Source: Vulcanimicrobiota bacterium | GTDB lineage: Bacteria; Vulcanimicrobiota; Vulcanimicrobiia; Vulcanimicrobiales; Vulcanimicrobiaceae | Reading direction: 5' to 3' | Assembly: GCA_027452165.1 (NCBI GenBank) | Contig: DAIDGX010000016.1 | Location: 1-64,000, forward strand | Length of the DNA: 64,000 nucleotides | In this document: positions 9,433-31,283 of the stretch, one piece after another | Position numbering within the stretch: the stretch's first letter is position 1 | How the letters are laid out: every line of letters begins with the position of its first letter | The notes under the pieces: model-generated | Told to the model about the DNA's origin: nothing | Databases searched by the model: none | The model's input: the letters and a program-made list of their open reading frames with translations, nothing else | Position numbers and translations under genes: made by a program

Positions 9433-9436
9433 GACG

Positions 9437-12940: not shown

Positions 12941-12972
12941 AAACGAGCTCGACGATTACGTCGAGCTCGTTT
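12941..12972. terminator. Bidirectional intrinsic terminator
   Basis: A perfect 13-base-pair stem (12941-12953 with 12960-12972, arms AAACGAGCTCGAC and its complement) closes a six-base loop, GATTAC. The arm itself ends in TTT, followed by TCGTTT, and the other side is A-rich, so it can act for both the plus-strand gene ending at 12912 and the minus-strand oxidase operon ending at 13005. Confidence 0.85.
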
Positions 12973-13004
12973 TCGTTTGCAAAACGCGGCGATGCCGGTC
13001 GCGC

Positions 13005-13214: not shown

Positions 13215-13215
13215 G

Positions 13216-13431: not shown

Positions 13432-13449
13432 AGTTCGTACTCGCGTTCC

Positions 13450-14082
13450 TTAGATCAGGTAGAAGATCGAGAAGAGCGCGACCCAGATGACGTCAACGAA
13501 GTGCCAATACAACGTGCCTGCGGTGAGGCCGAAGTACTTGTCCTTCGTATAGACGCCGTGGACCGACTGGAGGAAGAGCACCGTCAGGTAGATCACGCCG
13601 ACCGTGACGTGAAATCCGTGCATGCCGGTGAGCGTGAAGAATCCGGCTCCGAAGATGCCGCTACCCGCCCACGAGACGTGCTCCTTGAAGTACAGGTTCG
13701 TGTACTCGTAGGCTTGCCCCGCGAGGAACATCGCGCCCAGAATGATCGTCGCGATCATGAAGAACGCGTACTTGCCGAAGTTGTTGTGCTTCCAGTTCTC
13801 GAGCGCGTAGTGCATCGTCGCTCCGGATCCGAAGAGCACCACCGAGTTCACCGCCGCAAACGCGACGTCGAGGTGGTTGATCCCGGCCGGCGGCCAGCCT
13901 TGGCCGCTATTGCGCATATAGAGATAGGCGAAGATGAACGACGAGAAGAGCACGCAGTCGGAAACGAGGAAGAGCAGGAAGCCCTGAAGGCGCAGTGCTC
14001 GCGTTTCGACGTAGAGCTGATCGACTTCGCCGTGATCGCCGTGCGCGGCAGCCGCGCCGTGGGGAAGAGTTGCTACTGCCAT
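13450..14082 (-). CDS. ctaE: Cytochrome c oxidase subunit III
   Basis: Subunit III supports proton uptake and stability of the heme-copper oxidase core. The 210-residue protein has five membrane helices, the short form common in bacteria. Family marks are FLVSDCVLFSSFIFAYLYMR, NSVVLFGSGATMHYAL, FLAGQAYEY, GSGIFGAGFFTLTGMHGFHV and YWHFVDVIWVALF. A strong ribosome site, AGAGGAGAAC, precedes the ATG at 14082. It follows subunit I by eight bases. Confidence 0.95.
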   Translation of the reverse strand: MAVATLPHGAAAAHGDHGEVDQLYVETRALRLQGFLLFLVSDCVLFSSFIFAYLYMRNSGQGWPPAGINHLDVAFAAVNSVVLFGSGATMHYALENWKHNNFGKYAFFMIATIILGAMFLAGQAYEYTNLYFKEHVSWAGSGIFGAGFFTLTGMHGFHVTVGVIYLTVLFLQSVHGVYTKDKYFGLTAGTLYWHFVDVIWVALFSIFYLI

Positions 14083-14090
14083 GTTCTCCT

Positions 14091-15761: not shown

Positions 15762-15778
15762 AACTGCTTACTCCCGGG

Positions 15779-16918
15779 TCACTTCAACGAGCTCAAGTAC
15801 GCGACCAAATTCGCGATATCTTTATCGGAGAGATTATTGGCGGCTTGGTTGGGCATCTGGCCAATGTCGCCCTTATAGCCGTTCTGCAGAATCGTCGCGA
15901 TGTTCGCGGGCGTCGCCTTGTCGCCATCGACGAGATTCGGATGCTGCGGATCGTCGAGCAGGCCTTTCAAGCCCGGACCCACGACACGCTGCGAGAAGGG
16001 CGCGATCGCATGGCAGGCGCTGCACTTCTGCGCGAAGAGCGCTTGACCGGCCTTCGCATCGCCGCCGGCGAGGCTGATCGTGCCGGTCGAGACCGTCGCG
16101 ATCGCGTCGCTCGCGTGCGCGTTCTTGACCTGCCAGCCGTGATACCACTTCTCGAAATCGGCCGGCGTATCAACGACCAGGTACTGCGCGCCCGGATTGG
16201 GCTTGCCTTGCCACGTCGGCATGTTGCCCGACATCAAGCCGTGGTTGGTTCCACAGAACTCGGTGCAGACGATCGGGTACCGGCCCACTTTCGTCGGCGT
16301 GAAGCGGATCGTGTTGATGAGACCCGGCACCATGTCGGCCTTCAGGCGGAACTGCGGCACCCAGAACGAGTGGATCACATCGGCCGAGGTGACGTTCATG
16401 ACGACCGGCTGATTGACCGGAAGGTGCATCTCGCCCGTGATCTCACCGTGGATCTGCGGATAGCGGAAGGTGAAGTACCACTGATGACCGATCGATTCGA
16501 CGACGAGCCCGTTGGTCGGTTGCGCGATTTGAATCGCGTACCATACTTTCACGCTCCAAACCGACAGGATCACGACGAGCAGCGTGGGGATGATCGTCCA
16601 CCACAGTTCGAGCTTGTGATTGTCGTGAATCTGCACGCCGATCGCGTCGGGCGGATCCGTCTTGCGCGCACGGAACGCGATCATGAAGTAGATCAAGTAG
16701 CCCGCCACGACGATCATGATCGCCGACGCCGTCGCGGCCATGAACCGGAAGAGGACGTCGATCTCGCCACCCGGCTGCGCTGCAACCGGAGGCATCACGA
16801 TTCGAAGCGACGTGTACGACCAAAACACGATCGCTGCTAAAGCCAGCAGCGCGATGACCGTGGTAGCAATCCAAAAGCCACGACCTAGTGTCGTGGCCGG
16901 GGCGCGATTTTCGACCAA
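15779..16918 (-). CDS. ctaC: Cytochrome c oxidase subunit II fused to cytochrome c (caa3 type)
   Basis: Subunit II receives electrons through its CuA centre. It has two N-terminal membrane helices, a cupredoxin domain with the CuA motif CTEFCGTNHGLM (about residues 215-226), and then a cytochrome c domain with CSACH (about 297-301) and a Met ligand in GQMPN near 355. This fused form defines caa3 oxidases. The frame is open to 16960, but TTG at 16918 is preferred: AGGGAGAG lies about eight bases before it, giving 379 residues. It is the first oxidase gene and follows nanE by 83 bases. An unsupported TATAGT -10-like hexamer lies at 16962-16967. Confidence 0.94.
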   Translation of the reverse strand: MVENRAPATTLGRGFWIATTVIALLALAAIVFWSYTSLRIVMPPVAAQPGGEIDVLFRFMAATASAIMIVVAGYLIYFMIAFRARKTDPPDAIGVQIHDNHKLELWWTIIPTLLVVILSVWSVKVWYAIQIAQPTNGLVVESIGHQWYFTFRYPQIHGEITGEMHLPVNQPVVMNVTSADVIHSFWVPQFRLKADMVPGLINTIRFTPTKVGRYPIVCTEFCGTNHGLMSGNMPTWQGKPNPGAQYLVVDTPADFEKWYHGWQVKNAHASDAIATVSTGTISLAGGDAKAGQALFAQKCSACHAIAPFSQRVVGPGLKGLLDDPQHPNLVDGDKATPANIATILQNGYKGDIGQMPNQAANNLSDKDIANLVAYLSSLK

Positions 16919-17001
16919 GTGTTTTCTCTCCCTGACCCGCGAGTCTCTACTTCTTCTCAACTATAGTCAGCAGCACCCTGTTCGTGCATCGACTTTAGCG
17001 G

Positions 17002-17688
17002 TCACATTCGTGAGGGACGTTTTGGCGCTTGCCCGGCAAATTCCCGGACCAACCAATCGACGTTCGTGATCGCGGTCCCCACCACGACCGCACCCGCTCC
17101 GGCCCGGAACGCACGCGCAACGTCGTGCGGCGTCGTGACGCCGCCCTCGCAGATGACAAAGCAATTCAGTTCGCACAACTCACGGAGCAGCGCAAGCGCC
17201 GGCAAGGGTGTTCCTTGCGTCTGCGACGTGTAGCCACAGAGGGTCGTCGCGACGATCTCGGCACCCGCAGCTTGGGCGCAGAGCGCATCGGCCGCGGTCG
17301 CACAGTCGGCCATCGCGAGCCGGCCCGCCGCATGGATGGCATCGACCAGGTTCTCGACGCTCGTTCCGTCGGGCCGCGGCCGGCCGGTCGCGTCGAACGC
17401 GACGATCTCGGCGCCCGCTTCGACCACCTCGGCAACCTCACGCACCGTCGGCGTGATGTACGGTTCGAAGCCGGGGTACTCGCACTTGATCAGGCCGATG
17501 AGCGGGAGCGTCACACGGGCCCGGCCCGCGCGCAGGTTCGCGACGCCCTGCATCCGTACGGCCGCGGCACCGTTCGCCTGGGCCGCCGCGGCCATCGCCG
17601 CGAGCACGTAGGGATCGTCGATCGCCGAACCAGGCCAGGCCTGGGCCGAGACGATCAGTCCTCCCCGCATGCCCTCGAGCAGGCTCAC
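17002..17688 (-). CDS. nanE: N-acylglucosamine-6-phosphate 2-epimerase (ManNAc-6-P epimerase)
   Basis: NanE turns N-acetylmannosamine-6-phosphate into N-acetylglucosamine-6-phosphate, joining sialic acid or ManNAc salvage to amino-sugar use. The (beta/alpha)8 barrel shows GLIVSAQAWPGS near the N-terminus, AVRMQGVANL, LIGLIKCEYPG, a VAFDATGRPRP segment, MADCAT, ATTLCGYT and the phosphate-binding end CEGGVTTP with GAGAVVVGTAIT. The GTG at 17688 overlaps the kinase stop (GTGA), giving 228 residues, the normal length; the longer frame to 17811 lies within the kinase gene. It is last in a four-gene operon. Confidence 0.92.
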   Translation of the reverse strand: MSLLEGMRGGLIVSAQAWPGSAIDDPYVLAAMAAAAQANGAAAVRMQGVANLRAGRARVTLPLIGLIKCEYPGFEPYITPTVREVAEVVEAGAEIVAFDATGRPRPDGTSVENLVDAIHAAGRLAMADCATAADALCAQAAGAEIVATTLCGYTSQTQGTPLPALALLRELCELNCFVICEGGVTTPHDVARAFRAGAGAVVVGTAITNVDWLVREFAGQAPKRPSRM

Positions 17689-18575
17689 AATCGCCCCGCG
17701 AGGATCGCGGCGCCGGCCGCCGGTTCTGCCCGGGCCGCCACCACGCGAACCGCCGCCCCACGGGCCTCGAAGTACGCGGCGCACGCCCCTTCGAGCTGCG
17801 CCGCGAACCACGGATCGCGGGCAAGCCCGCCGGCGAAGGCCGCCTGGACCGGGCCCGTGCGTTCGAGCGCGGCGTCAAAGGCGAGGCGCGCGAGCTCGCC
17901 GGCAGCATCGCGCGCCGGCTGCGCGATGCAGTCGCACCGGTCGCCGTCACGTGCCGCGGCAAGCGCGTACGGAGCGAAGGCGGCGAGATCGGCACGGGGG
18001 ATCGCGCCCGCATAGAACGCATCGACGATCTCGCGCACCGTATGCCGGTCGAAAAAGCTGAGCAGGGTCGCGATGCCGCGGCAGTCGTCGTGACGCGCCG
18101 CGCCGCTCACCGCGCGGCGCGCGATCCAAAACGCGCTTCCTTCATCACCGAAGAGATATCCATAGCCGCCGGTGCGGCGGGCGCGCCCGCGTGCGGTTGC
18201 GTACGCCACGGATCCGGTGCCCGCGATCACGGTTACGCCGTCCTCACCACCGAGGGCGCCCGCATGAGCGATCGGCGCGTCGTGCATCAACGCAAAGCGG
18301 TCGGCCGGCATGCGCGGAGCCTCGCCCACGATGCGCCCTTCGTATCCGGAGACGCCCGCGACGATTGCAGCAAACCGGGTCTGCGGCGCGAGGCCGCAGG
18401 CACGCACGGCATCGGCAAGGGCGCCTTCGAGCGCGTCGCGCAGACGCGTTGAACCGGGGCGCTCGCCCAGTTCATCGGCGGCACCCGCATATCCGTACCC
18501 GAGGATCGTTCCGTGCTCGTCCGCCACGACCGCCGTCGTAGAGCTCTGTCCACCGTCGATGCCGGCGACGAGCAT
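17685..18575 (-). CDS. N-acetylglucosamine kinase-like protein (BadF/BadG/BcrA/BcrD ATPase family)
   Basis: This 296-residue ASKHA-fold protein has the phosphate-1 motif GIDGGQSST (residues about 5-13), an IAGTGSVAYA phosphate-2 motif, GYGYLFGDEGSAFWI and a C-terminal AFAGGLARDPWF adenosine motif. This set is typical of GlcNAc and related amino-sugar kinases of the BadF/BcrA family. Overlap with nanE (GTGA) and five-base spacing from the peptidase gene support a role in amino-sugar salvage, probably phosphorylating GlcNAc or ManNAc. Substrate choice is inferred from context. Confidence 0.85.
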   Translation of the reverse strand: MLVAGIDGGQSSTTAVVADEHGTILGYGYAGAADELGERPGSTRLRDALEGALADAVRACGLAPQTRFAAIVAGVSGYEGRIVGEAPRMPADRFALMHDAPIAHAGALGGEDGVTVIAGTGSVAYATARGRARRTGGYGYLFGDEGSAFWIARRAVSGAARHDDCRGIATLLSFFDRHTVREIVDAFYAGAIPRADLAAFAPYALAAARDGDRCDCIAQPARDAAGELARLAFDAALERTGPVQAAFAGGLARDPWFAAQLEGACAAYFEARGAAVRVVAARAEPAAGAAILAGRL

Positions 18576-18580
18576 GCGTG

Positions 18581-18889
18581 CTACTCCGCCGTACGCTCGA
18601 TCAGCTTGCGCGCAAACTCGTTCGCGGCGATCTCGCGGTCCTTGCGTTCGGGCAGGCGCGGAACCTCACCGATGTGCTCGCGGTGGTGATAGAGTTCGTG
18701 CCCGATCGAGAAGCAGATAAACTCGCCGAACTCGGCGGGCGTCATCTGCTCGGCGACGCGAATGTTCAGGCGAATCGTCGGTCCGCTCGGATCGTACTCC
18801 GAACGCAGTTCGTCGATTCCCCAGTCGCCGAGATCGGCGAATTGAATGTTGATGCCGTACTCACGGGCAAGGCGCAATGCCGAGTTCAA
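18581..18889 (-). CDS. ImmA/IrrE-like zinc peptidase domain, stand-alone
   Basis: A 102-residue protein with the zinc-peptidase motif HELYHH (His64, Glu65, His68) followed by RKDREIAANEFAR, in which Glu or Asp could be the third ligand. This arrangement (HExxH, about 25 residues, then E-x-x-A-N-x-F-A) is that of ImmA/IrrE (M78) peptidases, which cleave repressors. Here there is no helix-turn-helix partner. It sits between an FAD oxidoreductase (ATGA overlap) and a sugar kinase. The target is unknown, and whether it regulates this operon cannot be told from the sequence. Confidence 0.8.
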   Translation of the reverse strand: MNSALRLAREYGINIQFADLGDWGIDELRSEYDPSGPTIRLNIRVAEQMTPAEFGEFICFSIGHELYHHREHIGEVPRLPERKDREIAANEFARKLIERTAE

Positions 18890-20235
18890 TGGGTTCTCCG
18901 TAGGTCAACTCCGTCCGCGACCAGCCGCGCACGCAGTTCGTTCGTATCTACGTCGCCCACACACACGCGCCGTTCATTCGCGAACGCCGCCGCAGTTCCG
19001 GCTGCCTGGCCAAGCGTCATCACCGTCGGCGTAAGGCGCGTGGAGGCGAGCGCCTCGTGCGTGGTCGAGATGCAGCGCCCCGCCACGAGCAGTTGCTCGC
19101 GCGCGGCCGGCACGAGGCAGCGGAACGGAATTTCATACGTGGCTCCCGGCGGCAAACGGTACGTCGTGGTTCCGCTCCCCGACGGATTGTGCAGATCGAT
19201 CGGATAGGCGCTGCGCGCGACCGCGTCGTCGAAGGTGCGCCCCTCCAGGATATCCTGCGCGTCGAGCGTGTAGCGACCCACGATACGGCGTGACTCACGA
19301 ATGCCCACCTGCGCGCCGGTTGCTGCGATACGCGCATGCTCGAAGCCGGGGACGCGTTCGCGAAAGAAGCGCAGCAACTGCATCACTTGCAGGCGTGCCT
19401 CGATCTCGGCACGCGTGAGGTCGTCGGGATCGAGCGGATCGACGTCGGTCACGCGCGTCATGTTCACGGTCACTTCATCGGGGTAGGGCGAGATGAAGAA
19501 CGAGACGAGTTCGCGCGGGATATCCACGAGTCCGTCGCGCTGCGCGTCGTGCCACAGGTCGTAGAGGCCCGCTACGGCGGTGAGTGCGGACGCCGTGCGT
19601 GCGTGGGCTTTGAGCGAGGTCCGCATCTGATCGGGATGCATGCGCACGTAGGTAGCGGTCTTGCTCAGGTCGACGTGACTCAGGCGAAACATCAAGCTCG
19701 CGGGCTGAACGCGTCCGCGTTCGTCGCCTTGGTGCGTCACCACGCCCGCCGACGCGGCGACCAGCGCGTCGGCCGTCGCGTCGATTACGACGCGAGCGCG
19801 ATACGAACGCGTGCCGTTCACGGTTGCAACGCTCACGCCGGTGACGCGATCGCCCTCGACGTGTGCTTCGAGAAACCATGCATGCAACAATAACTCGACG
19901 CCCGCTTCGCGCATCATCTCGAAGAGCAGCGCCTTGTGCATCTCGGGATCGAACGGTGTGATCGTCGGCACGTACTCCGAGGCATCGTGCAGATGTCCGG
20001 GCGATCCACCGCGGCGTACCAGACGCTCCACGATCTCTTGCGCGATTCCGCCGACCACGCGCTCGGAGCCCGCGTGGAACGTCATCCACGGACCTACCAT
20101 CGCCGCCGTCGCCGTGCCGCCGAGAAAGCCGTATCGCTCGATCACGAGCGTGCGCGCGCCGTGCCGTGCGGCCGCGAGCGCCGCGGCACACCCGGCATTC
20201 CCTCCGCCCACGACCAGGAGATCGAACTCGCGCAT
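18886..20235 (-). CDS. FAD-dependent oxidoreductase (FAD_oxidored family)
   Basis: A 449-residue flavoprotein with the dinucleotide-binding motif VVGGGNAGCAAALAAARHGARTLVIER split over residues about 7-34, then GFLGGTATAAMVGPW, a typical PF12831 segment, VVIDATADALVA, and a C-terminal VAGRCISTTHEALASTR plus MTLGQAAGTAAA FAD contact. Relatives include proteins near sugar catabolism genes with poorly known substrates. The frame is open to 20934, but the 233-residue extension is antisense to the DUF4870 gene and low in complexity, so the ATG at 20235 before MREFDLLVVGGG is chosen. It is the first gene of the amino-sugar operon; only 33 bases separate it from the divergent gene. Confidence 0.85.
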   Translation of the reverse strand: MREFDLLVVGGGNAGCAAALAAARHGARTLVIERYGFLGGTATAAMVGPWMTFHAGSERVVGGIAQEIVERLVRRGGSPGHLHDASEYVPTITPFDPEMHKALLFEMMREAGVELLLHAWFLEAHVEGDRVTGVSVATVNGTRSYRARVVIDATADALVAASAGVVTHQGDERGRVQPASLMFRLSHVDLSKTATYVRMHPDQMRTSLKAHARTASALTAVAGLYDLWHDAQRDGLVDIPRELVSFFISPYPDEVTVNMTRVTDVDPLDPDDLTRAEIEARLQVMQLLRFFRERVPGFEHARIAATGAQVGIRESRRIVGRYTLDAQDILEGRTFDDAVARSAYPIDLHNPSGSGTTTYRLPPGATYEIPFRCLVPAAREQLLVAGRCISTTHEALASTRLTPTVMTLGQAAGTAAAFANERRVCVGDVDTNELRARLVADGVDLRRTH

Positions 20236-20268
20236 GGGGAGCGCCCTTCGCTGCCGAAGGCGGCGATC

Positions 20269-20682
20269 ATGCAGATGCAGATCGACAGCGAGGATCGCAA
20301 CTGGGCGATCTATGCAAACGCGGCGGGGCTCCTCGCCTTCACGAACATTCCCTTTGCCAACCTGATCGGACCGCTGTTGATCTGGCTCAAGGTGCGCAAC
20401 GATCCCGCCATGCCATTCGCACGCGCACACGCGCGTAGCGCGCTCAACTTTCAAATCACGTGGACGCTCGCGCTCGCGATCTTCATTGCCACCACCATCG
20501 CCACGATCGTTGGGTCCGGCGGCATGCCGGGACTCTTTCTGCCTGGGCACTCGCTGATCGTCCCGTTCGTAACGGTCATCGCGCTCGTCGTGGCAAACGC
20601 GGTCATCTGCATCCTCGGCTGCGTGCGCGCGTCGAACGCCGACATGCCGGCCAACCCGTTCGTCATCCCCTTCGTGCGCTAG
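20269..20682 (+). CDS. DUF4870-like membrane protein
   Basis: A 137-residue protein. It has the DUF4870 pattern NWAIYANAAGLLAFTNIPFANLIGPLLIWL near the N-terminus, a conserved HARSALNFQITW segment and two or three further helices. The ATG at 20269 is used because GAAGG lies eight bases before it and the family begins there; the frame open from 19936 is antisense to the oxidoreductase. These are small polytopic proteins of unknown role. Confidence 0.82.
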   Translation: MQMQIDSEDRNWAIYANAAGLLAFTNIPFANLIGPLLIWLKVRNDPAMPFARAHARSALNFQITWTLALAIFIATTIATIVGSGGMPGLFLPGHSLIVPFVTVIALVVANAVICILGCVRASNADMPANPFVIPFVR

Positions 20683-20731: not shown

Positions 20732-22195
20732 ATGCTGTTACAACGAGTTAAGCCGCTCGAACGCATCTTAGCGGAAGGCGGCGATGAGTCCAAAGGGGAG
20801 GGTCTCAAGAAGACGCTCGGCGCGGGTTCGCTGATGGCCATGGGCATCGGCGCGATCATCGGCACCGGCATCTTCGTGCTGACAGGCGTCGCGGCGGCAA
20901 CCCGCGCCGGCCCCGCACTGACGATATCGTTCATCGTCGCAGGTATCGTGAGCGCGTTCGCGGCGCTCTGCTACTCCGAGGTCGCAAGCCGCATTCCGAT
21001 TGCCGGAAGCGCATACACGTTTGCATACGCGTCGCTCGGTGAGTTCATCGCCTGGATCATCGGATGGGATCTCGTCCTCGAGTACGCGCTCGGGGCAGCA
21101 ACCGTGAGCATCGGGTGGTCCGGCTATTTCGTCACGTTCCTCAAGAACGTGTTCGGCATCGTCATTCCGCCGAGCTTACAGCAGAGCTATTGGGAGCAGG
21201 CGACGAGCGGGGCCATCGTCCACGGGACGGGCTTTATCAACCTTCCTGCGTTTCTCATCATCTGCTTGATCGGCGTTCTGCTCTATCGCGGCACGCGCGA
21301 ATCGGCGCTCGTGAACAACATCATCGTGGTCGTGAAGCTTGCGATCGTGCTGTTCTTCATCGCGCTCGGGCTCGGCCACGTGAACACCGGAAACTGGACA
21401 CCATACTTCCCGTTTGGTTGGACCGGCATGCTCGGCGGCGCAGCCTTTATCTTCTTTGCCTACATCGGTTTCGACGCGGTTTCCACCGCGGCCGAAGAGA
21501 CGAAGAATCCCTCGCGCGATCTTCCGATCGGCATCATCGGCAGTCTCGCGGTCTGCACCGTGCTCTACATCATCGTGGTCGCGATCTTGACCGGCATGGT
21601 TCCGTACAAATTGCTTAACGTCGCCTCACCGGTCGCCTTTGCGATGGATCACGTTGGCATGGGATGGGCGAGCGCGATCATCTCGCTTGGCGCTCTCGCG
21701 GGCCTTACAACGGTCTTGCTCGTGATGATGTTCGGTCAGACGCGCGTCTTCTTCGCGATGTCGCGCGATGGTCTCTTGCCGGCGGTCTTCTCGAAGCTTC
21801 ATCCGAAGTTTCGGACTCCCGGCCTTTCAACGATCATCTTCACGATCTTCATCGCGTCGATCGCCGCCTTTACGCCGATCGGCATCGTCGGATCGCTTAC
21901 GAACATGGGAACGCTGATCGCGTTCATCTTGGTCTCGATCGCGTTGCCGATCATTCGCAAACGCTATCCGAACACACGCGGTTTCTCGGTGCCGTTCGGA
22001 CCGTATCTCATCCCGGTGCTCTCCGCGCTCACCGCCGCGGGCTTGATCTTCTCACTGAAGTTCGGAAGCCCCGTGTGGTTCGGCTTGCCTGCGCCGTGGC
22101 TGGGATTTCTCGTCTGGCTCGTCGTTGGGCTCTTCCTGTACTTCCTCTACGGCCGCAACAATAGTACGGTCGGCAAGGAAGAGGCGGCCGGATAG
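20732..22195 (+). CDS. Amino acid permease, APC family (cationic amino acid transporter-like)
   Basis: This 487-residue carrier has 12 or more membrane segments. Family marks are LGAGSLMAMGIGAIIGTGIFVLTG in helix 1 (the unwound substrate-binding turn), the AALCYSEVASRIPIAGSAYTFAYASLGE stretch of helices 2-3, and FFAYIGFDAVSTAAEETKNPSRDLPIGI in helix 6. These are typical of bacterial relatives of the CAT/YfnA group importing basic or other amino acids by proton symport. Substrate is not determinable. It ends in a strong intrinsic terminator at 22219-22260. Confidence 0.9.
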   Translation: MLLQRVKPLERILAEGGDESKGEGLKKTLGAGSLMAMGIGAIIGTGIFVLTGVAAATRAGPALTISFIVAGIVSAFAALCYSEVASRIPIAGSAYTFAYASLGEFIAWIIGWDLVLEYALGAATVSIGWSGYFVTFLKNVFGIVIPPSLQQSYWEQATSGAIVHGTGFINLPAFLIICLIGVLLYRGTRESALVNNIIVVVKLAIVLFFIALGLGHVNTGNWTPYFPFGWTGMLGGAAFIFFAYIGFDAVSTAAEETKNPSRDLPIGIIGSLAVCTVLYIIVVAILTGMVPYKLLNVASPVAFAMDHVGMGWASAIISLGALAGLTTVLLVMMFGQTRVFFAMSRDGLLPAVFSKLHPKFRTPGLSTIIFTIFIASIAAFTPIGIVGSLTNMGTLIAFILVSIALPIIRKRYPNTRGFSVPFGPYLIPVLSALTAAGLIFSLKFGSPVWFGLPAPWLGFLVWLVVGLFLYFLYGRNNSTVGKEEAAG

Positions 22196-22218: not shown

Positions 22219-22260
22219 AAAGGTGCGAGAGCCGCCGGTTTGGCTCTCGCACCTTTTTTT
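22219..22260. terminator. Strong intrinsic terminator (probably both directions)
   Basis: The arms 22219-22233 (AAAGGTGCGAGAGCC) and 22242-22256 are perfectly complementary over 15 pairs with an eight-base loop, followed by further T to 22260. It ends the permease transcript and, with TTTCGTTT on the other strand, can also end the five-gene minus-strand operon whose last stop is at 22290. Confidence 0.92.
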
Positions 22261-22289: not shown

Positions 22290-24380
22290 CTACGCGAGAC
22301 GCCGAACGGTGAGCAAAACGATCGTCTCGTCGGCGTCGCGACCGGCTATCTCCTCCGATACAAGGGCGATGGCCTGATCGACGCTCGCCAATCCGCTGAA
22401 ATCGGCGATGCGCGCCCCGTGTAACACGAAAAGCGCGGGAAGCGCGCGCCCAACGTCGCCAAAACTGCTGCGCTCTTCGAGCGTCGTGCGCAGTGCGGAC
22501 TGAAGATCTGCCACCGTTACCGAGCGCACCTCGGCATCGCGTAGCGCGAGACGAACGACCCCACGATCGTCCACCACGCGTAGATCGCGCTCGAACCAAT
22601 ACATTGTAAGCGTTGCGGTTGCCGATCGCCGCATCACACGCTCGACCGGCACGCGCAGAGCTTGCGCGGCAACGATCATGCGCTGCGCATCGTCCACCGT
22701 ATCCCGCCCCGCTGCTTCGGCGAGCGCGGTCGCGCCGCTCGCGGTTGCGCGCACACGGTTGCGTTGCGCATCGATCTCGATCACCACATCCACGCGTTGC
22801 GCGGAGGCCCCGGCCGCTATCACACGATCCGTCGCCTCGCGGCGCAAACGCGCGATATCATCTGGAGTCGGATCGACGATCGTACGCTCGACGACGTCGC
22901 GAACGAGCGCAAGGGCGACGCCGATCGGCGAGATCACCTCGGCGTCGCGTGCGATGCGATGCTCCACCCCCATCGACGCGGCGACGAACGGCACGAGCGC
23001 GGCCGCTCCGCCACCGCCGCCCACCAGCACGAGCGTATCGAGCGCGAGGCCGTAGTCGGCGATCAGTTCGTCGATACACGCGCGCACCTTGCGCGCGCCG
23101 ATCTCGAGCATCGCACGCGCCAGGACCTCAGGCTCGCTCCGAAGCTCGTTCGCGAGCAGTTCGAACGCGGCGCGTGCCGCGTCGGCATCGCCTCGGGCAA
23201 AGGCTTCCTGCGGAATATATCCGAGCAGATTGCTCGCACACGTCGGCGTCACCGTCGCCGTGCGTCCGTCGCGCAGGCGCAGACGCACGTAGTCTCCCGG
23301 ATCGCGCGGTGCCGACGCAAAGCGTTCCACGGTTGCGCCCGCGAACTCGGCGCGCGTAAGAAACGAGGCGTATGCACAGCCGGCGATGTGCGCCGAACGC
23401 GGACCAACGTCAACGATGCCATGGGCATCGACGCGTGCCATGCTGCCGCCCGCGATGCCGAGGGTACGCGAATCGATCGTGTGCAACATCGTGCGATGCC
23501 CGCCGACGCGCGCGGGTCGCATCTGCGGAACGCCGCCGCGGATCGCCGAGCAATCGACGCTGGTGCCGCCGACCTCGAGGAAGATGCCGTCGGTGACGTT
23601 GTCGTAGAGCAAAGCACCCGCAACGCCGGCCGCCGGTCCCGAAAGCATGGTGAGAATGGGCCGCCGTTCCACCTCGCGCACGTCCATCACGCCGCCGTCG
23701 CTGCGCATGATCATCAGCGGCGCGACGATCCCCGCTCGCGCCACCGCATCGGCGGTCATACGCGCGGTGCGTACCATCTTTGGAAGAATTGCGGCGTTGA
23801 GCGCGGCCGTTCGCGTGCGCGCACGAAGACCGTACATCGTGGTGACGTCGTGGCCGCTTGTCGCGAAAAGCCCACGCGCCCGCGCCGCGTCCATCGCCGC
23901 GCGTTCACCACGCGCGTCATCCACGCCGAAGGGCGCGCTCGCTGCGATCGCTTCCACGCCATGTTCCGCGAGCGCATCGAGTGCGGCGCCCACCGCAGCT
24001 TCGTCGCCTCCGCGAGCAAACGCAAACGGCGCGCGTAACGCGATCCCCGGTGCGAGCATCACCGGCGCGAAGCGCATTTGCCGGCGCGCAAACCAGCCTC
24101 TGCCAATGCCGAGCACGCCGACGCGCGCGACGTCGCCCTCGAGCAACGCATTGGTCGCCTGGGTCGTGGAGTGCGCGATGAATGCGACGTCGCTCGGCGC
24201 GACGCCGCGCTCGCGAAGCAGCCGTTCGATCCCCGTGACGATGCCGTCGGCAACACCGTTGCGCCCATCGTGCGTGGTCGGCACCTTGACGCGGGCGACC
24301 AATTCATGCGAGCGCGCATCGATCGCGACGACGTCGGTAAAGGTACCGCCCACGTCCACCCCGAGGCGCAGCTTCGTCAT
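22290..24380 (-). CDS. Hydantoinase/oxoprolinase family protein (HyuA-like), without HyuB partner
   Basis: The N-terminal half is HyuA/acetone carboxylase-type ASKHA ATPase: LGVDVGGTFTDVVAID (residues about 6-21), AHSTTQATNALLEG, VMIMRSDGG-like MIMRSDGGVM, LSGPAAGVAGA, FLEVGGTSVD and LVLVGGGGGAAALVPFVA. Such proteins activate a lactam or carboxylate by phosphorylation and normally work with a HyuB subunit, which is not in the window. The last roughly 200 residues, from about 500 on, do not resemble the usual HyuA C-terminus. It follows the beta-lactamase-like gene by five bases and is last in the operon. Substrate is unknown; a 5-oxoproline-type lactam is only one option. Confidence 0.82.
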   Translation of the reverse strand: MTKLRLGVDVGGTFTDVVAIDARSHELVARVKVPTTHDGRNGVADGIVTGIERLLRERGVAPSDVAFIAHSTTQATNALLEGDVARVGVLGIGRGWFARRQMRFAPVMLAPGIALRAPFAFARGGDEAAVGAALDALAEHGVEAIAASAPFGVDDARGERAAMDAARARGLFATSGHDVTTMYGLRARTRTAALNAAILPKMVRTARMTADAVARAGIVAPLMIMRSDGGVMDVREVERRPILTMLSGPAAGVAGALLYDNVTDGIFLEVGGTSVDCSAIRGGVPQMRPARVGGHRTMLHTIDSRTLGIAGGSMARVDAHGIVDVGPRSAHIAGCAYASFLTRAEFAGATVERFASAPRDPGDYVRLRLRDGRTATVTPTCASNLLGYIPQEAFARGDADAARAAFELLANELRSEPEVLARAMLEIGARKVRACIDELIADYGLALDTLVLVGGGGGAAALVPFVAASMGVEHRIARDAEVISPIGVALALVRDVVERTIVDPTPDDIARLRREATDRVIAAGASAQRVDVVIEIDAQRNRVRATASGATALAEAAGRDTVDDAQRMIVAAQALRVPVERVMRRSATATLTMYWFERDLRVVDDRGVVRLALRDAEVRSVTVADLQSALRTTLEERSSFGDVGRALPALFVLHGARIADFSGLASVDQAIALVSEEIAGRDADETIVLLTVRRLA

Positions 24381-24385
24381 CGTGG

Positions 24386-25078
24386 CTATTGCAGCGGAAA
24401 GAGCTTGGTGACGTCGGCGATCGCTTGCCGAACCTCGGCGCGAAGCGCGGCACGTTCGGATGCACCGGCATGAGAACCGCGCAGCATAACGATCGCAGTA
24501 AACGTGTGCCCGTCGATGGTCATTCGCGTTTCGTCGCGCTGCGCGAGCAGGCCGAGCATAGCGTCACGCGAGGCGCTAGAGAGCAGGTTGCCGTGTATCA
24601 CCCGCGCGATCAAGGTGGCAAGTCCGCGCGGCGTCGCTGTTCCGCCGTCATTGGCGGCAACCTCGATCTCATTCAATCCATCCGCGCGCAACGCCGTGTT
24701 TACCGAGGCGGCACCGCCGAGCATCTGCAGCAGTGTCGCGCTTGCGGCGTCATCGCCACGGCCGAGCGCGCGCTGGAGTAACACCCGCACCTCCGCGAGC
24801 GTGAACTGATGGCGATCCACGCGTTCGTACGTTGCGAGCGCGACCGCCAGTGTTTGCAAGCTTCCCATAGGCATCATCACGCCGTCATTGCGTGTCGCAA
24901 GCGCGCCTGTGCCGGTGTCGTACACCACGACGCCGAGCGTCGCACCGAGGCGGTGCGCATGCGCTGCCACCGGCACGAGCCGTGCTTCGAGCGCGGCGCG
25001 CTCGGAGAGCGGCGCCGGGGTCGCGGTGAAGATCGGCGCAGGGGTGGTGAAGAGTTGCGCGACGACGATGGGAATCAC
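24386..25078 (-). CDS. Degenerate class A beta-lactamase-like protein
   Basis: From GTG 25078 (GTGA overlap with the dipeptidase stop) the protein has 230 residues. The fold pattern matches class A beta-lactamases: GATLGVVVYDTGTGALATRNDGVMMPMGSLQTLAVAL, then DDAASATLLQMLGGAASVNTAL and ATPRGLATLI. Catalytic residues are lost: the S-x-x-K motif reads S73-L-Q-T76, SDN reads GDD, and the KTG motif is missing. It may therefore bind rather than hydrolyse peptides or cell-wall fragments. The N-terminus is hydrophobic enough to be a signal peptide. The frame extends to 25570 but that part overlaps the upstream gene. Confidence 0.78.
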   Translation of the reverse strand: MIPIVVAQLFTTPAPIFTATPAPLSERAALEARLVPVAAHAHRLGATLGVVVYDTGTGALATRNDGVMMPMGSLQTLAVALATYERVDRHQFTLAEVRVLLQRALGRGDDAASATLLQMLGGAASVNTALRADGLNEIEVAANDGGTATPRGLATLIARVIHGNLLSSASRDAMLGLLAQRDETRMTIDGHTFTAIVMLRGSHAGASERAALRAEVRQAIADVTKLFPLQ

Positions 25079-26457
25079 ATCTTCAACGCGGCGAGTTCGT
25101 CGTAGAGCATCGCCATCGTCTCGATGCCGCCGAAGAACTGCGACAGGCTGAACTTTTCGTTCGGCGCATGGATGTGATCGTCGGGAAGGCCGACGCCGAT
25201 CATCACTTGCGGCAAGCGCAAAATGCGATCGAAGCTCGCAACCGGAGCGATCGAACCGCCGGTACCGATATAGACCGGTGCTTTTCCGAACCCCGCGTGC
25301 ATGGCACGCCCGGCAGCGGCGAGCGCCGGATGCGATCGCGCGATCACGACCGCAGGGCCACCGCCCGACGACTCGACGTGAACGCGCACGCCCGGCGGCG
25401 CCACGCGCTCGATATATTCGCCGACGATGCGCCGCACGACGTCGGGGTCTTGCGTGCCGACCAAGCGCGCGGAGATCTTGGCTTTGGCGAAGCTCGGGAT
25501 GATCGTCTTCTGACCGGGTCCTTGATAGCCGCCCCAGATGCCGTTGCACTCGAGCGTCGGGCGGAACCACATGCGCTCGAGCGGCAGGCGTCCGCGCTCA
25601 CCGGCCAACTCGGGTACGCCCAGTTGCGCGGCTTCGTGTGCTTCGTCGAACGGAAGACCGCGTAGTTCCGCCATCGCATCCGCGTCCAGGTCGGGAACGC
25701 CGTCGTAAAAGCCGGGTACCGTGACGCGCCCGTCGGCATCCTTGAGCGCTGCCACGATCTGCGTGAGCGCCTCGATCGGATTGCGCACGATCCCGCCGTA
25801 GTAGCCCGAGTGCAGATCGTCGGCCGGTCCGTTCACCTCGATCTCCCAGTGCACGAGTCCGCGCACGCTCGTCGTGAGTGACGGTACGTCCTCGGAATAG
25901 ACCGCCGTGTCGCTGATCACGGCAACGTCGGCGGTGAACTGCTCGCCATACCGGGCAAGCGCACTGTCGAAACTCGGCGACCCGATCTCTTCTTCGCCTT
26001 CGACGATCACCTTCACGTTGATCGGGAGCCGTCCGCGCGTGCGCATGTGCGCTTCGATCGCGGCGAGGTGCATGAGCACTTGGCCCTTGTCATCGACCGC
26101 GCCGCGCCCGTAGATGTTGCCGTTACGCACCGTGCCTTCGAACGGCGGGGAGACCCAGGCCTCGACCGGATCGGCGGGTTGCACGTCGTAGTGACCGTAG
26201 ATCAACACCGTCGGGCGGCCCGGCGCGCCGAGCCACTCGCCGTAGGCGAGCGGGTTCCCATCGGTCTCCAAGACCCGCGCATCCATTCCGATCTCCGTCA
26301 TGCGCGCGACCAACCGCTCGCAACAGCGCCGCACGTCGCCCGCGTGGGCGGGGTCGGCGGAGATCGACGGGATGGCGATCCAAGCTTTGAGTTCGTCGAG
26401 GTACACCTCGCGATGCTCGATGCAGTACGCGTGCAGATCGGTCGGTATGGTCGCCAT
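25075..26457 (-). CDS. M20 family metallopeptidase (dipeptidase)
   Basis: A 460-residue co-catalytic zinc peptidase. Metal and catalytic sites are visible: GHYDVQP (His89, Asp91), GRGAVDDKGQ (Asp122 or 123 region), EGEEEIGS (Glu155-157), a DTAV metal Asp and, near the C-terminus, DDHIHAPNEKF. The dimerisation domain shows GPADDLHSGYYGG. This is the M20A/carnosinase-like dipeptidase group, usually cytoplasmic and acting on di- or tripeptides. The ATG at 26457 has AAAGG upstream; the frame runs on to 26607 with low-quality sequence. It sits between the PDZ-permease and the beta-lactamase-like gene, suggesting peptide use. Confidence 0.92.
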   Translation of the reverse strand: MATIPTDLHAYCIEHREVYLDELKAWIAIPSISADPAHAGDVRRCCERLVARMTEIGMDARVLETDGNPLAYGEWLGAPGRPTVLIYGHYDVQPADPVEAWVSPPFEGTVRNGNIYGRGAVDDKGQVLMHLAAIEAHMRTRGRLPINVKVIVEGEEEIGSPSFDSALARYGEQFTADVAVISDTAVYSEDVPSLTTSVRGLVHWEIEVNGPADDLHSGYYGGIVRNPIEALTQIVAALKDADGRVTVPGFYDGVPDLDADAMAELRGLPFDEAHEAAQLGVPELAGERGRLPLERMWFRPTLECNGIWGGYQGPGQKTIIPSFAKAKISARLVGTQDPDVVRRIVGEYIERVAPPGVRVHVESSGGGPAVVIARSHPALAAAGRAMHAGFGKAPVYIGTGGSIAPVASFDRILRLPQVMIGVGLPDDHIHAPNEKFSLSQFFGGIETMAMLYDELAALKM

Positions 26458-26471
26458 GGTGCCTTTCGTCG

Positions 26472-28493
26472 TTACCCTGGTTGTGCGGGCGGCGCGTAGG
26501 GCGCGCCGAGTTGGATATCGTACGTCCGACCGTCCCGTTCCACCTCGAAGCCGTGCGGTTTTCCGTCGTACGCGCGTGCTTGCGTCTGAAACGTGCCATA
26601 CTCCCACCAGAACTTGCCATCGAGCTTGTTCACGATATCGTTCGTGCGCAAGCCTGCATCATATGCGGGGCCGCCTGCCCGCACGTAGGCACGCATGTAG
26701 CCGTCCACCGTTTTAAAGAGCGCATAAAAATAGGTCGGCGCATCGCCCGGCGCGCTTGCGATGCCGTGCGTGAAGAGCTCCGTCGCGTGACGCGGCCGGC
26801 GCAGCGCCCAGGCCCGCAACCGCGCGACGCCCGCAAGCGCAAGTGCGCGCGCGTTCGACGGCGTCGTCTCACCGTGCGCGGTCGCGTGATCGTGCCACTC
26901 CTGCACGATCCATCCGCCACAGTCTTCGAGTCGCAACCCGACATCGAGATCGGTTCCCTCGAGCAGTTTGAAGGTGGTGGCGGAGACGAACAGATAGGCC
27001 GCGTACGCTTTCGACGCGCAGCCGCTCGCATCGGGATCAGCGTGGAGCGCGAACGCGTGATAGCCTGCAGCGTCGAGCTGGCCGATGACCGCACGCGCGG
27101 CAACCTGGCCGAGCGCCGTGCGATCGTCGTCCACCGCGATGTGCTGCGCAGCCTCCGGCGGCGCCGTGAAGCCGGGTTGCGGCGCGAGCGCATCGGCATA
27201 CGCCGGCGGCGCGATCGACGCAAATACGCGCACGCCGAAGAGCCGGCCGCCGAAGAGTACCACCGCCAACGATGCGAGCGTTGCAACGCCCACCTGCCAC
27301 AGAAGCGTTCGCCGCGCGATCGTCTCGATCGAGACGCCCGTAAAATTTGCCACCCAGACGTTTGCGGTATTCGTGGGATCGCACACGTTCTGCACCTGCA
27401 CCACCGCCATCACCGCCGCGACGATGATCACCGGCGGCAACGCGTGCGAAGCGAGCAGCACCGTGAAGATCGCGATGCCCACGCCGAAGGGGTTGAGCGG
27501 CCCGCGGTAGAGCGCAAGCGGGCTCAAAAGACCGAAGATCGCGACGTATGCGACCGGATTGCGAATCCACGGACCCGCAAACGGCGCGAGCGCCGCGGCG
27601 AATTGCGGCGTACGCGTCGCGGTGAGCAGCATCCCTATACCGATGAAGAGCAAGATCGCCGGCGCAACGTCCTCGACGCCGCGAATCGCTGCCGCAACGA
27701 GCGTTGGGATCGCGCGCCGTGGACGCGTAACGAGCACGCCGAAGAGCGCGGCCAGGATGAAGGCGATCGTCGGATCGAGGTGCAGCGCGTAGTAGAGGAC
27801 GAGTGGGAGCACGGGCGTCGCAAGTGCGATCGCCGGGACACGCGGAGCAGCCTCATCGTCGCGTGCGCGTACCGCCCAGGTCGCGTATCCGCGCTCGCGA
27901 CGGAACGCGACGATCGCGTAGGCAACCAGCGCGAGCGCGTCGATCGCGGCAAGCACCAGCGCGTAATGCGTCATCTGCTCCGGCGCCACCGCGAAAAACT
28001 GCGTGTAGAACTTCCAGTTGACGATGTTGAAGATGAAGCCGAGCGCAAACGCGAGTAGAAAGAGCGTCGCCGCGATCGTGCGCGGCACGCCCGTCGTCAT
28101 CAAGATCGGGAGCACGATCGATCCGACCATGATGATCGCCCCAAGCCCCGAAAGCGAGGTAAAGAGCAACGCGACGATCGCGCACATGCCGAGCGCGAGC
28201 AGCATCGGGCGCTCGCCGCCATACTCGGCGGCAAGGTTTACGAGGGCGCGCGCGATGCCCGTGTCCATCGTAACCCGGCCGAGCAGCGCGCCGAAGATGA
28301 CCGCCACATACACGCTCGCAAGCGACGATGCTCCGTTCACGACGATCGACCCGATCTGCGCGGGATCGAGCCGCGCGACGATCGCCATCGCTACGGTCAT
28401 CGCCGGAATCGCGATGAGCGCGGGGACCCAGCGCATATACATCATCACCGCGAAGGCGAGAAAGACCGCGAGCAGCAGCACGCCTACGATCAT
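26472..28493 (-). CDS. Ion-transporter-superfamily permease fused to an extracytoplasmic domain with PDZ
   Basis: A 673-residue protein. Residues 1 to about 440 are a polytopic permease of the ion transporter superfamily (GntP/CitM/DcuC-like): two halves, each with a conserved turn (SLSGLGAIIMVGSIVLP and NVCDPTNTANVWVAN). Residues about 450-570 are a soluble region with Cys and mixed secondary structure, and about 590-670 form a PDZ domain (GGPAYDAGLRTNDIVNKLDGK, then HGFEVERDGRTYDIQLG). Start ATG 28493 overlaps the GH20 stop (ATGA). The family normally imports organic acids; a permease carrying a PDZ is unusual. Exact family and substrate are uncertain. Confidence 0.78.
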   Translation of the reverse strand: MIVGVLLLAVFLAFAVMMYMRWVPALIAIPAMTVAMAIVARLDPAQIGSIVVNGASSLASVYVAVIFGALLGRVTMDTGIARALVNLAAEYGGERPMLLALGMCAIVALLFTSLSGLGAIIMVGSIVLPILMTTGVPRTIAATLFLLAFALGFIFNIVNWKFYTQFFAVAPEQMTHYALVLAAIDALALVAYAIVAFRRERGYATWAVRARDDEAAPRVPAIALATPVLPLVLYYALHLDPTIAFILAALFGVLVTRPRRAIPTLVAAAIRGVEDVAPAILLFIGIGMLLTATRTPQFAAALAPFAGPWIRNPVAYVAIFGLLSPLALYRGPLNPFGVGIAIFTVLLASHALPPVIIVAAVMAVVQVQNVCDPTNTANVWVANFTGVSIETIARRTLLWQVGVATLASLAVVLFGGRLFGVRVFASIAPPAYADALAPQPGFTAPPEAAQHIAVDDDRTALGQVAARAVIGQLDAAGYHAFALHADPDASGCASKAYAAYLFVSATTFKLLEGTDLDVGLRLEDCGGWIVQEWHDHATAHGETTPSNARALALAGVARLRAWALRRPRHATELFTHGIASAPGDAPTYFYALFKTVDGYMRAYVRAGGPAYDAGLRTNDIVNKLDGKFWWEYGTFQTQARAYDGKPHGFEVERDGRTYDIQLGAPYAPPAQPG

Positions 28494-30421
28494 CGAAACG
28501 CCTTCGGGGCGCCGATCACCGAATCGAGCGGCGGCAAGCTTTTCGTCACGAGATAGTCTTCGTAGGTGACGCGATCGATCGCGTCGGCCCGCTCGATTGC
28601 TCGCTGTGCGTCGAGGTGATAGCGCTCGAGATTGCTTGCGAGATGACCCGGACGGCTCTCGTAGCGCCACGCTTGCGCGTAGAGCGGCGCGAGTTCTTCG
28701 TCGTTATCGCGCTGCTCCCAAAACCAATATTTACACCAAAACAGGTCGCGTACGGCATCTTTGGGATGGAGTAATGCATCCGCATAGTACTGGCGCACCT
28801 CACGCGCGATCTGGTAGCGCCGCCCGAGCGCATCGTAGCGACGCGCGGCGAGCAGCATCACCCTCGCCGCGTTCGCGTGCAAAGGTGGATGCACGCTGTA
28901 GAGGTCTTGTTCCACGCGCTCGGCTTCCAGTCGCGTGCGCGAGAGCGCCGCATCCGAGAGCTTTTCCGCAACCGCATCGTCGAAGGGATCGTCCCAAAAC
29001 AACTTGTCGCTCGCATCCGTCCCGAGTTGCGCATCGATACCCCCGAGCGTCAACGCATCGCGGGAATACCGTGCATCGTTCACGCCGAAAAACGCGTGCG
29101 GGAAATCGGCGGCAAAGTCCGCGAGCGAATCGTCGGTGCTCCAGGCGGCCGCGGCCGCGTAGAGGACCGGATACCACGTCGCCTCATAGAGCGTCTCGCC
29201 GTCGTCGTTCCAGACCGTCTGAAACAGGCCAAGGACGTGCGCGGCTTTCCCCTCGCGAATAAACAGCCGCTCGTTCGGCAAAGCGGTGTGCAGGTCGGGA
29301 AAGATGCGGTTCCAATTATTCGCACCGGGCGCGACCATCTGCGCAAACCCGCCGCGCGCGATCGTGCGAATGTACGGTTCGAACGTCTTCTGCGCTCCGT
29401 AGTGCCAATTGACGATTACCGCCGTCTTCGGCAGGTGCGCCATGATCGAGGGGTCGGCTTCGATCCCGTCGTCCCACAGCATCACGCGCGCACCCGAGGG
29501 CGCGATGATGCGGGCCATCTCGTTGACGTGCGCGGCGTACACCGCTCCGCGTCCCCCGTGTGCGGCGACGTATGCGGTCGTCTGTCCTTCGCCGAGCGTC
29601 GCCGTTTCGTCGGAGCCGATGTGAAAGAACGGGGGATGGGGAACTGCTTGCAACTCCTGCGTGATGATGCGCGTGAGATAACGCAGCGAGAGCGGCTGAT
29701 TCGGCGAGAGTAAGAAGCCGTGCGGGAATTCGGCTGCCTTGGCGTAGCGTTCGACGCGCAACGTGTTGTGCATGTGCGCGAACGTCTGTTGCTCGGGGAT
29801 GAACGCCACGTGATAGCGCGCCGCGTAGCGATCCAACTCGCGAAGTTGCGCGGGCGTGATGCCGTCGAGCGGTGCGGGCAGCGGATCGGTCGGGCTCACG
29901 AAAACGTTCTCCATGTACGGCGAGTAGCCGTTCATCTTGAACGCCGCGATCGTGCGGATACGCTCTTTGAAATAGCGCATCGTCGGCAGCGGCCCGCGCG
30001 AGACGTCGTCGGAGAGAATCCGCCAGCGCAATTGCGGCGCGTCGGCGATGGCGACGCACGGAAGGCGGGCGGCTGAGCCGCGTCCGCTCGCAAGTTGCGC
30101 GAGGGTCGTGAGCGCGTAGAAGGCACCGTCGGCACCGGCGCTTGCAATCGACACGCCGCGGTCATCGACGCGCAGGCGATAGCCTTGCGGCGCGATCGAC
30201 CCATCGCGCACGAAGCGCACCTCGGCGTGCGGCGATGGCCGCGGCACGGCGATGCCGAGCGCCTTCCAGCGGCGGCGCAGCAGATCGTAACCGCCGGGGT
30301 CCACGGTGCGGGCGATCGTGCGGGGGATCGCAATCGAGCCGGCCCGGCACGACGCGGGGCGCACCTCGGTTGGACGCGGCACCACGTGCAGGGCCACAAG
30401 CGCCACGATCGCTGCAAACAT
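28490..30421 (-). CDS. Beta-N-acetylhexosaminidase (GH20)
   Basis: GH20 enzymes release terminal GlcNAc or GalNAc from glycans by substrate-assisted catalysis. From ATG 30421 the protein has 643 residues, with a signal-like segment MFAAIVALVALHVVP, an N-terminal GH20b-like domain (YRLRVDDRGVSI, GADGAFYALTTL) and a catalytic barrel with HIGSDET, Asp271-Glu272 being the catalytic pair, and a tryptophan-rich C-terminal part (NWHYG, NNWNRIFPD, FQTVWNDDGE). The helical C-terminal region is large. The frame extends to 30775 but that region overlaps the divergent FecR gene; ATG at 30451 is another candidate. It is first in the five-gene operon. Confidence 0.9.
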   Translation of the reverse strand: MFAAIVALVALHVVPRPTEVRPASCRAGSIAIPRTIARTVDPGGYDLLRRRWKALGIAVPRPSPHAEVRFVRDGSIAPQGYRLRVDDRGVSIASAGADGAFYALTTLAQLASGRGSAARLPCVAIADAPQLRWRILSDDVSRGPLPTMRYFKERIRTIAAFKMNGYSPYMENVFVSPTDPLPAPLDGITPAQLRELDRYAARYHVAFIPEQQTFAHMHNTLRVERYAKAAEFPHGFLLSPNQPLSLRYLTRIITQELQAVPHPPFFHIGSDETATLGEGQTTAYVAAHGGRGAVYAAHVNEMARIIAPSGARVMLWDDGIEADPSIMAHLPKTAVIVNWHYGAQKTFEPYIRTIARGGFAQMVAPGANNWNRIFPDLHTALPNERLFIREGKAAHVLGLFQTVWNDDGETLYEATWYPVLYAAAAAWSTDDSLADFAADFPHAFFGVNDARYSRDALTLGGIDAQLGTDASDKLFWDDPFDDAVAEKLSDAALSRTRLEAERVEQDLYSVHPPLHANAARVMLLAARRYDALGRRYQIAREVRQYYADALLHPKDAVRDLFWCKYWFWEQRDNDEELAPLYAQAWRYESRPGHLASNLERYHLDAQRAIERADAIDRVTYEDYLVTKSLPPLDSVIGAPKAFR

Positions 30422-30458: not shown

Positions 30459-31283
30459 ATGAAGATGCATGCGTTCGTTCTTCCTGCGGCGCTGCTTGCG
30501 GTATTCGCCGTCACCTTGCCCGTCCGCGCCTCCGACGACAAGGAGCTGCTCAACATGAAGGGCTCGGTGCGATACCAATTGCCGAGCCGTCCGGCAAAGC
30601 CGCTTCCACCGAATGCCACGGTGGCGCTGAACGACCGTGATCTCGCGATCACGGGGGCCGCCTCGCTTGCAGGGCTGACGCTTCCCGATAGCTCCCAAGT
30701 GCTGGTGGGCGCGGACAGCAAGGTTGAACTCGGTTTCTTCAACCAAACCACGATCGCAAACGCAAAGTTCGTCATCTACAACGGCAAGGTGCGCTTTACC
30801 GTGCGCCATCCGCAGGGCGCCAAGGCGAACTACGTCTTCTCCACCCCCACCGCGCAAGTCGCGGTGCGGGGCACGCAAGGCGACATCGATAGCTCCGCGG
30901 GGCAACTGCGCGTGAACGTGTACGAAGTCTGCGATCCGCACGAACCGGTAACGGTCACCACGAAGAACGGACAGACCTTTCAACTTCTGGCCGGGCAATC
31001 GCTCGTCGCGCAACTCGTCAACGGTATCGTGCGCGCCAAGGTGGAGCAGCTTACGCAACAGATGATCGATCAATTCGCGCCGGATTTCGGGGCGCCCAAG
31101 AGCTGGGACGCTGCAACGCAACAGGTGATCGGCATGGCGCAGAGCCAAGCGTCGAGCGCGATCGACAACGCGGCCGGCGGCTACGGTCACGAGATCACGG
31201 GCGCGCTCGGCGGCCTCTTCGGTCACCACAAAGCGACGCCCGCGCCATCACCGTCGCCGGTGTCGGCGTCGTGCACCCACTAG
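30459..31283 (+). CDS. FecR-domain exported protein
   Basis: This 274-residue protein starts with a signal peptide of about 24 residues (ending VRAS-D). Residues about 70-170 match the FecR beta-domain: LPDSSQVLVGADSKVELG, KVRFTVRHPQGAKANYVFSTPTAQVAVRGTQGDI, where the TPTAxVAVRGT segment is the FecR hallmark, and ITVTTKNGQTFQLLAGQS-like end (VTVTTKNG). The rest is helical with Ala/Gln-rich sequence and a Pro/Ser tail. No membrane helix or TonB partner is near, so this is probably a periplasmic or surface FecR-type protein rather than an iron-sensing regulator. The ATG at 30459 is divergent from the GH20 gene. Confidence 0.82.
   Translation: MKMHAFVLPAALLAVFAVTLPVRASDDKELLNMKGSVRYQLPSRPAKPLPPNATVALNDRDLAITGAASLAGLTLPDSSQVLVGADSKVELGFFNQTTIANAKFVIYNGKVRFTVRHPQGAKANYVFSTPTAQVAVRGTQGDIDSSAGQLRVNVYEVCDPHEPVTVTTKNGQTFQLLAGQSLVAQLVNGIVRAKVEQLTQQMIDQFAPDFGAPKSWDAATQQVIGMAQSQASSAIDNAAGGYGHEITGALGGLFGHHKATPAPSPSPVSASCTH

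Follow-up and report, generated by a model that had tools for sequence, protein, structure and literature searches.

The 64,000-nt stretch analyzed here (the window; contig DAIDGX010000016.1, from a 95% complete genome, G000, of the lineage Candidatus Eremiobacterota) carries on its minus strand, between 30421 and 17002, a set of genes that we read, with little more than even confidence, as an amino-sugar salvage cluster. The centre of this locus is an unnamed and widespread module made up of a permease, a lone HyuA-type ATPase, often a small HExxH protein, and a flavin adenine dinucleotide (FAD)-dependent oxidoreductase of family PF12831 (FADox). Our best guess for the substrate is an anionic amino-sugar fragment that ends as N-acetylmannosamine (ManNAc) or N-acetylglucosamine (GlcNAc) phosphate. 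The locus comprises:

28490-30421, minus strand: GH20 exo-beta-N-acetylhexosaminidase; ATG start, with an in-frame alternative start at 30451.
26472-28493, minus strand: permease-PDZ fusion, overlapping the GH20 gene by 4 nt.
25075-26457, minus strand: M20 dipeptidase, 14-nt gap from the permease-PDZ gene.
24386-25078, minus strand: class A beta-lactamase-like protein; GTG start, 4-nt overlap with the M20 gene.
22290-24380, minus strand: HyuA-type ATPase (hydantoinase/oxoprolinase A family), 5-nt gap from the beta-lactamase-like gene.
22219-22260, both strands: predicted hairpin of a bidirectional intrinsic terminator between HyuA (minus) and an APC permease gene (plus).
18886-20235, minus strand: FADox (PF12831, 424 bits), whose phyletic profile tracks the permease and HyuA.
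18581-18889, minus strand: small HExxH zincin-like protein of 102 aa; TTG start, 4-nt overlap with FADox.
17685-18575, minus strand: BadF/NagK-type kinase (PF01869).
17002-17688, minus strand: NanE, N-acetylmannosamine-6-phosphate 2-epimerase; a GTG start, inferred from sequence, overlaps the kinase stop.

The original prediction had treated the first five genes (22290-30421) as a tightly packed unit closed by a terminator. All five open reading frames are present with the spacing given above, and Pfam and NCBIfam back every gene name except that of the permease. Searching the window proteins by tblastn against loci of 40 relatives revealed that the conserved set is larger than these five genes and extends beyond the terminator to 17002-20235, taking in FADox, the HExxH protein, the kinase and NanE; this second half holds the best functional evidence. 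The order GH20-permease-PDZ-(M20)-HyuA-(APC, opposite strand)-FADox-BadF kinase-NanE is kept across family f1, and the 102-aa HExxH reading frame of the window sits between the FADox and kinase genes. In family f2 the set forms one co-directional run, with the matches to HyuA and to FADox separated by 18 nt. The terminator hairpin is strong (folding energy -30.6 kcal/mol, z -3.9) but bidirectional: its long T-run is unbroken on the plus strand and would there serve the APC gene that converges on HyuA (20732-22195), while on the HyuA side it reads TTTCGTTT. The five genes recur in the same order in four relatives (G001, G002, G008 and G032, the last with two extra genes before HyuA), indicating that they do co-occur in related genomes and that the idea of a cluster stands. 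Given this recurrence and the frequency of permease and HyuA in f1 and f2, the arrangement exceeds chance. A count at class level covered 117 genomes, 103 of them from f1 and f2 and 14 from the sister family f3; within the 103, the permease was present in 99, HyuA in 95 and FADox in 99 (92-96%), and none of the 14 had any of the three. Co-occurrence of permease and FADox gave a Fisher p of 1e-15, a test that is confounded by ancestry.

Beyond the class, a profile of the permease detected 414 relatives in a species-level genome collection, and the counts of distant loci given below refer to the best 80 of these. HyuA shared the locus in 73 of the 80 and FADox in 32, with the HExxH protein also present in 26 of the latter. 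Permease and HyuA occur as a pair in about nine phyla; the HyuA tree includes sequences from Bacillota, Spirochaetota, Acidobacteriota, Chloroflexota, Melainabacteria, Armatimonadota, Walliibacteriota, Actinomycetota and Vulcanimicrobiota/Eremiobacterota, where the phylum labels are those of the sequence records, many of them metagenome-assembled genomes. One genome (G007; loci L067 and L068) has a GH20-PDZ locus lacking the usual permease and a HyuA-HExxH-permease set elsewhere; its HyuA groups with Chloroflexota HyuA in the tree, and replacement by transfer is possible. A further family of ~230 aa that belongs to no Pfam family (c0; L148:7264-7956 and 21 further loci) adjoins permease-HyuA in Bacillota, Spirochaetota and Chloroflexota. 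We considered this family as a NanE in the Bacillota loci and rejected it, as profile comparison showed no relation.

The window HyuA matches PF01968 (214 bits) and PF05378 (Hydantoinase_A), both above cut-off, and its best solved relatives in the PDB are N-methylhydantoinase (7hk5), 5-oxoprolinase (6yra) and acetophenone carboxylase gamma (5l9w). It thus shares the HyuA domains of the HyuAB hydantoinases, 5-oxoprolinases and acetophenone carboxylases. The protein had been described as lone, and indeed no HyuB (PF02538) was found in G000, in 11 other permease-locus genomes of the family, or by tblastn in 120 loci; because of this absence, the window HyuA most likely works independently of HyuB. 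In a quick tree a branch with full support separated the permease-linked HyuA proteins from nine HyuB-linked Eremiobacterota HyuA. Unlike the HyuAB enzymes, therefore, the window HyuA lies in a separate clade, and its partners are a permease, a HExxH protein and a FAD enzyme.

The HExxH protein carries the motif HELYHHRE, of which H, E and H are invariant in 35 sequences, and its homologues adjoin HyuA and FADox in Bacillota, Spirochaetota, Chloroflexota and others. Its AlphaFold model (pLDDT 92.8) shows an IrrE/PprI-like fold (Z 8.9, rmsd 2.7, 89 residues aligned); the match to Pfam M78 reached 21.2 bits, just under the gathering score of 22, and a profile search against PDB sequences gave no credible match. 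The HExxH helix and overall fold are those of IrrE/PprI (M78) and minigluzincin zincins, but in contrast to these the HExxH proteins stand alone, at 100-240 aa, and are encoded with HyuA and FADox. One in-frame TGA flagged for FADox in many relatives, together with a tRNA-Sec gene in the window, raised selenocysteine as a candidate, which was rejected since in the loci checked the TGA either is the normal gene end (alignment 441-456) or falls outside the aligned region. The FADox copy of locus L174 has an early stop. The tRNA-Sec gene lies at 42761-42854 (minus strand), and selenocysteine may be in use in this genome. Divergent from FADox, at 19936-20682 (plus strand), is a reading frame for a small predicted membrane protein.

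The permease has no family match in Pfam or NCBIfam, and its PDZ part matches PDZ_2/PDZ_6 below threshold. The AlphaFold model of the fusion (pLDDT 91.9) predicts three parts. Residues 1 to ~420 resemble NaS1 (VIA-align Z 25.9, rmsd 3.9, 409 residues aligned) and the M subunit of SiaQM (Z 18.1, rmsd 5.4, 391 aligned), and comparisons of this predicted model within the ion-transporter superfamily ranged over Z 14.7-25.9 and rmsd 3.9-6.3, mostly with 370-410 residues aligned. The permease is thus predicted to belong to the ion-transporter-superfamily fold shared with TRAP-M and DASS carriers. In the same model residues ~449-571 resemble CsgG (Z 10.8, rmsd 3.6, 115 aligned) and PelC (Z 9.7, rmsd 3.5, 110 aligned), and residues ~581-668 resemble the PDZ domain of CtpA (Z 10.6, rmsd 2.7, 85 aligned). 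Both C-terminal domains probably lie in the periplasm; family f2 encodes them as two separate genes, permease and PDZ part, and the latter has a signal-peptide-like start, which makes a periplasmic PDZ part most likely. Of the permease with a PDZ domain originally described, both parts are present, but the PDZ part is a protein of its own, joined to the permease in one family. SiaQM and IseQM are among the top Foldseek matches of the permease, but ArsB and DASS rank as high as TRAP, so the fold gives no substrate. Carriers of this superfamily mostly move small anions, and an acidic substrate is hence expected. The likeness to TRAP (SiaQM) and DASS transporters is that of a predicted elevator-type membrane fold; the window permease differs from them in matching no Pfam or NCBIfam family and in carrying the CsgG/PelC-like and PDZ domains. 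Neither a TRAP binding protein (DctP/SiaP) nor a small Q subunit was noticed in the loci inspected, and no genome search was made for them.

The neighbours of the module connect it to amino sugars. In Oribacterium, [Clostridium] fimetarium, other Clostridia, Treponema and Wallbacteria it occurs with NanE and a ROK kinase, and several of these loci also contain NagB, NagA and an RpiR regulator; the tested examples of NanE, NagA and NagB exceed their curated cut-offs. The presence of NanE, ROK kinase, NagA and NagB beside permease-HyuA points to amino-sugar catabolism. Acidobacteria loci combine the module with GH20, GH3, an outer-membrane beta-barrel protein, DUF4127, a BadF kinase and NanE. 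DUF4127 was found in 16 and NanE in 8 of the 80 distant loci, the rough chance expectation being 0.3 if one copy per 3.5-Mb genome is assumed and relatedness is ignored. In the window NanE scores 263 bits against NCBIfam PRK01130 (cut-off 189), while the kinase reaches 85.7 bits against NagK_SO3507 (NF046058; equivalog cut-off 370), which indicates BadF/BcrA family membership only. Directly after NanE lie cytochrome oxidase genes COX1-3 (13450-16960, minus strand), syntenic in f1 and f2. A NagA homologue is encoded elsewhere in the genome. As in nan/nag operons, NanE, a ROK or NagK-type kinase, NagA, NagB and an RpiR regulator accompany the module; in contrast to them no NanA was seen in the loci, and HyuA, the HExxH protein and FADox occupy the place of the sialic acid lyase. 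None of 37 genomes had a NanA above the TIGR00683 cut-off, and the ~135-bit match in each of the 37 is probably DapA.

At the other end of the locus, GH20 matches PF02838 and PF00728 above the Pfam cut-off, and its PDB matches are GH20 hexosaminidases. The catalytic D-E pair is intact (HIGSDE), with HxGxDE kept in 32/32 homologous loci, and the protein begins with a hydrophobic leader. A FecR-domain protein is encoded divergently from GH20 at 30459-31283 (plus strand) and holds the same position in many relatives.

Two of the five genes first described turned out to be peripheral. The M20 protein scores 521 bits against the NCBIfam dipeptidase PRK08201 (equivalog cut-off 441) and matches cytosolic non-specific dipeptidase in the PDB (E 2e-66). 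Its gene is present in 21 of 33 f1 GH20/permease loci, some of whose contigs end early; peptide cleavage, proposed as a core step, is thus encoded by an optional gene that roughly one in three homologous loci lacks. The beta-lactamase-like protein belongs by sequence to the class A family (PF13354) but lacks the S70xxK, SDN, E166 and KTG motifs: K73, SDN and the C-terminal motifs are gone, and S70 is lost in the relatives' copies. Those relatives, with 32-42% identity, occur only in G001, G002, G008 and G032, and all five copies have lost the catalytic residues that define class A enzymes, so that we rejected this gene as a pathway enzyme and as a core step; it is a local, lineage-specific addition. 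Since the one gene is optional and the other is non-catalytic, rare and placed in a variable slot, neither belongs to the core. In relatives (L034, L037, L039, L040 and L048) the M20-HyuA interval is variable: its genes, methyltransferase-like ones among them, are unrelated, and those on either side are conserved.

We propose that GH20, by its family and leader an exported enzyme, would work outside the inner membrane, taking terminal N-acetylhexosamine off fragments of muropeptides or glycans, and that the CsgG/PelC-like and PDZ part may gather or present the cargo. The elevator-type permease would then import an anionic amino-sugar product, HyuA would use ATP to phosphorylate a carbonyl or amide of it, and the HExxH protein and/or FADox, replacing HyuB, might finish its opening or oxidation. 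The BadF/NagK-type kinase would phosphorylate the freed N-acetylhexosamine, NanE would convert ManNAc-6-P to GlcNAc-6-P, and the NagA homologue would deacetylate it to feed the hexosamine-phosphate pool; M20 and the beta-lactamase-like gene would be optional additions. Each enzymatic step, taken singly, is considerably less secure than the proposal as a whole. The original prediction of one gene set that combines extracellular release of N-acetylhexosamine with import of a product and an ATP-dependent step by HyuA is supported, and of the suggested processing of cell-wall fragments or glycopeptides, a cell-wall or glycan link is plausible. Several points weigh against amino-sugar salvage. The counted amino-sugar genes appear in only 18 of the 80 distant loci, and the Melainabacteria permease-HyuA pair stands almost alone; NagB proper was not found in the genome of the window; the HExxH fold is as near to the peptidase domains of regulators (IrrE) as to any metabolic hydrolase; and DUF4127 is the only link to murein, with MurQ occurring in permease-free f3 genomes too.

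That last link bears on an alternative we regard as unlikely, peptidoglycan recycling proper, in which the permease imports N-acetylmuramic acid (MurNAc) or stem-peptide fragments, M20 cuts the dipeptide, HyuA and the HExxH protein open a muropeptide amide or lactam, and the products feed the MurQ/AnmK operon. The genome has a MurNAc operon (L157, G000:C3:259000-278900; 7716-14756, minus strand) encoding a NagZ-like GH3, a beta-lactamase-type hydrolase, AnmK, a BadF kinase, MurQ and, last, DUF4127. In 91 of the 96 Eremiobacteria class genomes that have both, the distance between DUF4127 and MurQ is no more than 6 kb, and DUF4127 is common to this operon and to the permease-HyuA loci of Bacillota and Acidobacteriota. 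GH3 adjoins the module in Acidobacteria, M20 is present in many Eremiobacteria loci, and an M55 D-aminopeptidase lies near one permease-HyuA-FADox locus. However, M20 is optional, known murein recycling does not include NanE or ManNAc chemistry, and MurQ does not track the permease: a link that looked perfect in 37 genomes broke down across the class, f3 having MurQ but no permease and 14 of 18 permease-free genomes having MurQ.

Less likely still is a sialic-acid-like route, by which a SiaQM-like permease imports a sialic-acid or ManNAc derivative and HyuA, the HExxH protein and FADox make ManNAc instead of NanA. The company of NanE, kinase, NagA and NagB in loci where no NanA was seen, the lack of any match above the nanA cut-off in the 37 genomes, and the SiaQM/IseQM Foldseek matches are consistent with it, but the permease fold is at least as similar to DASS and ArsB transporters, and GH20 is no sialidase. 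That slow rearrangement merely kept the five genes together without a common pathway is very improbable: the adjacent cytochrome oxidase genes are likewise syntenic across the family and the M20-HyuA interval freely takes up unrelated genes, but neither the permease-HyuA adjacency in about nine phyla nor the joint occurrence of permease, HyuA, HExxH protein and FADox in Bacillota, Spirochaetota, Chloroflexota and Walliibacteriota can be local synteny, which largely refutes this explanation for the core, though it may still hold for M20 and the beta-lactamase-like gene.

The original prediction knew of no described system with this gene set, and we found none: searches of open-access papers turned up nothing relevant on the set, on DUF4127 or on HyuA with amino sugars, a claim of novelty limited by subscription journals lying mostly outside the search. 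Going beyond amino-sugar salvage in Eremiobacterota, we tentatively raise a bolder and less probable proposal, that permease, HyuA, HExxH protein and FADox make up a novel entry module for catabolism, distributed over about nine phyla, in which an imported acidic or lactam-bearing amino sugar would be converted to ManNAc or GlcNAc by a HyuB-independent, ATP-driven and flavin-dependent route in place of NanA or the known murein-recycling enzymes. If true, this would give a function to several unnamed families together (the permease, the HExxH protein, the HyuB-less HyuA clade and DUF4127), would predict that Eremiobacterota, gut Clostridia, spirochaetes and others have an amino-sugar route, and would make the role of HyuA-type ATPases without HyuB testable in culturable carriers.

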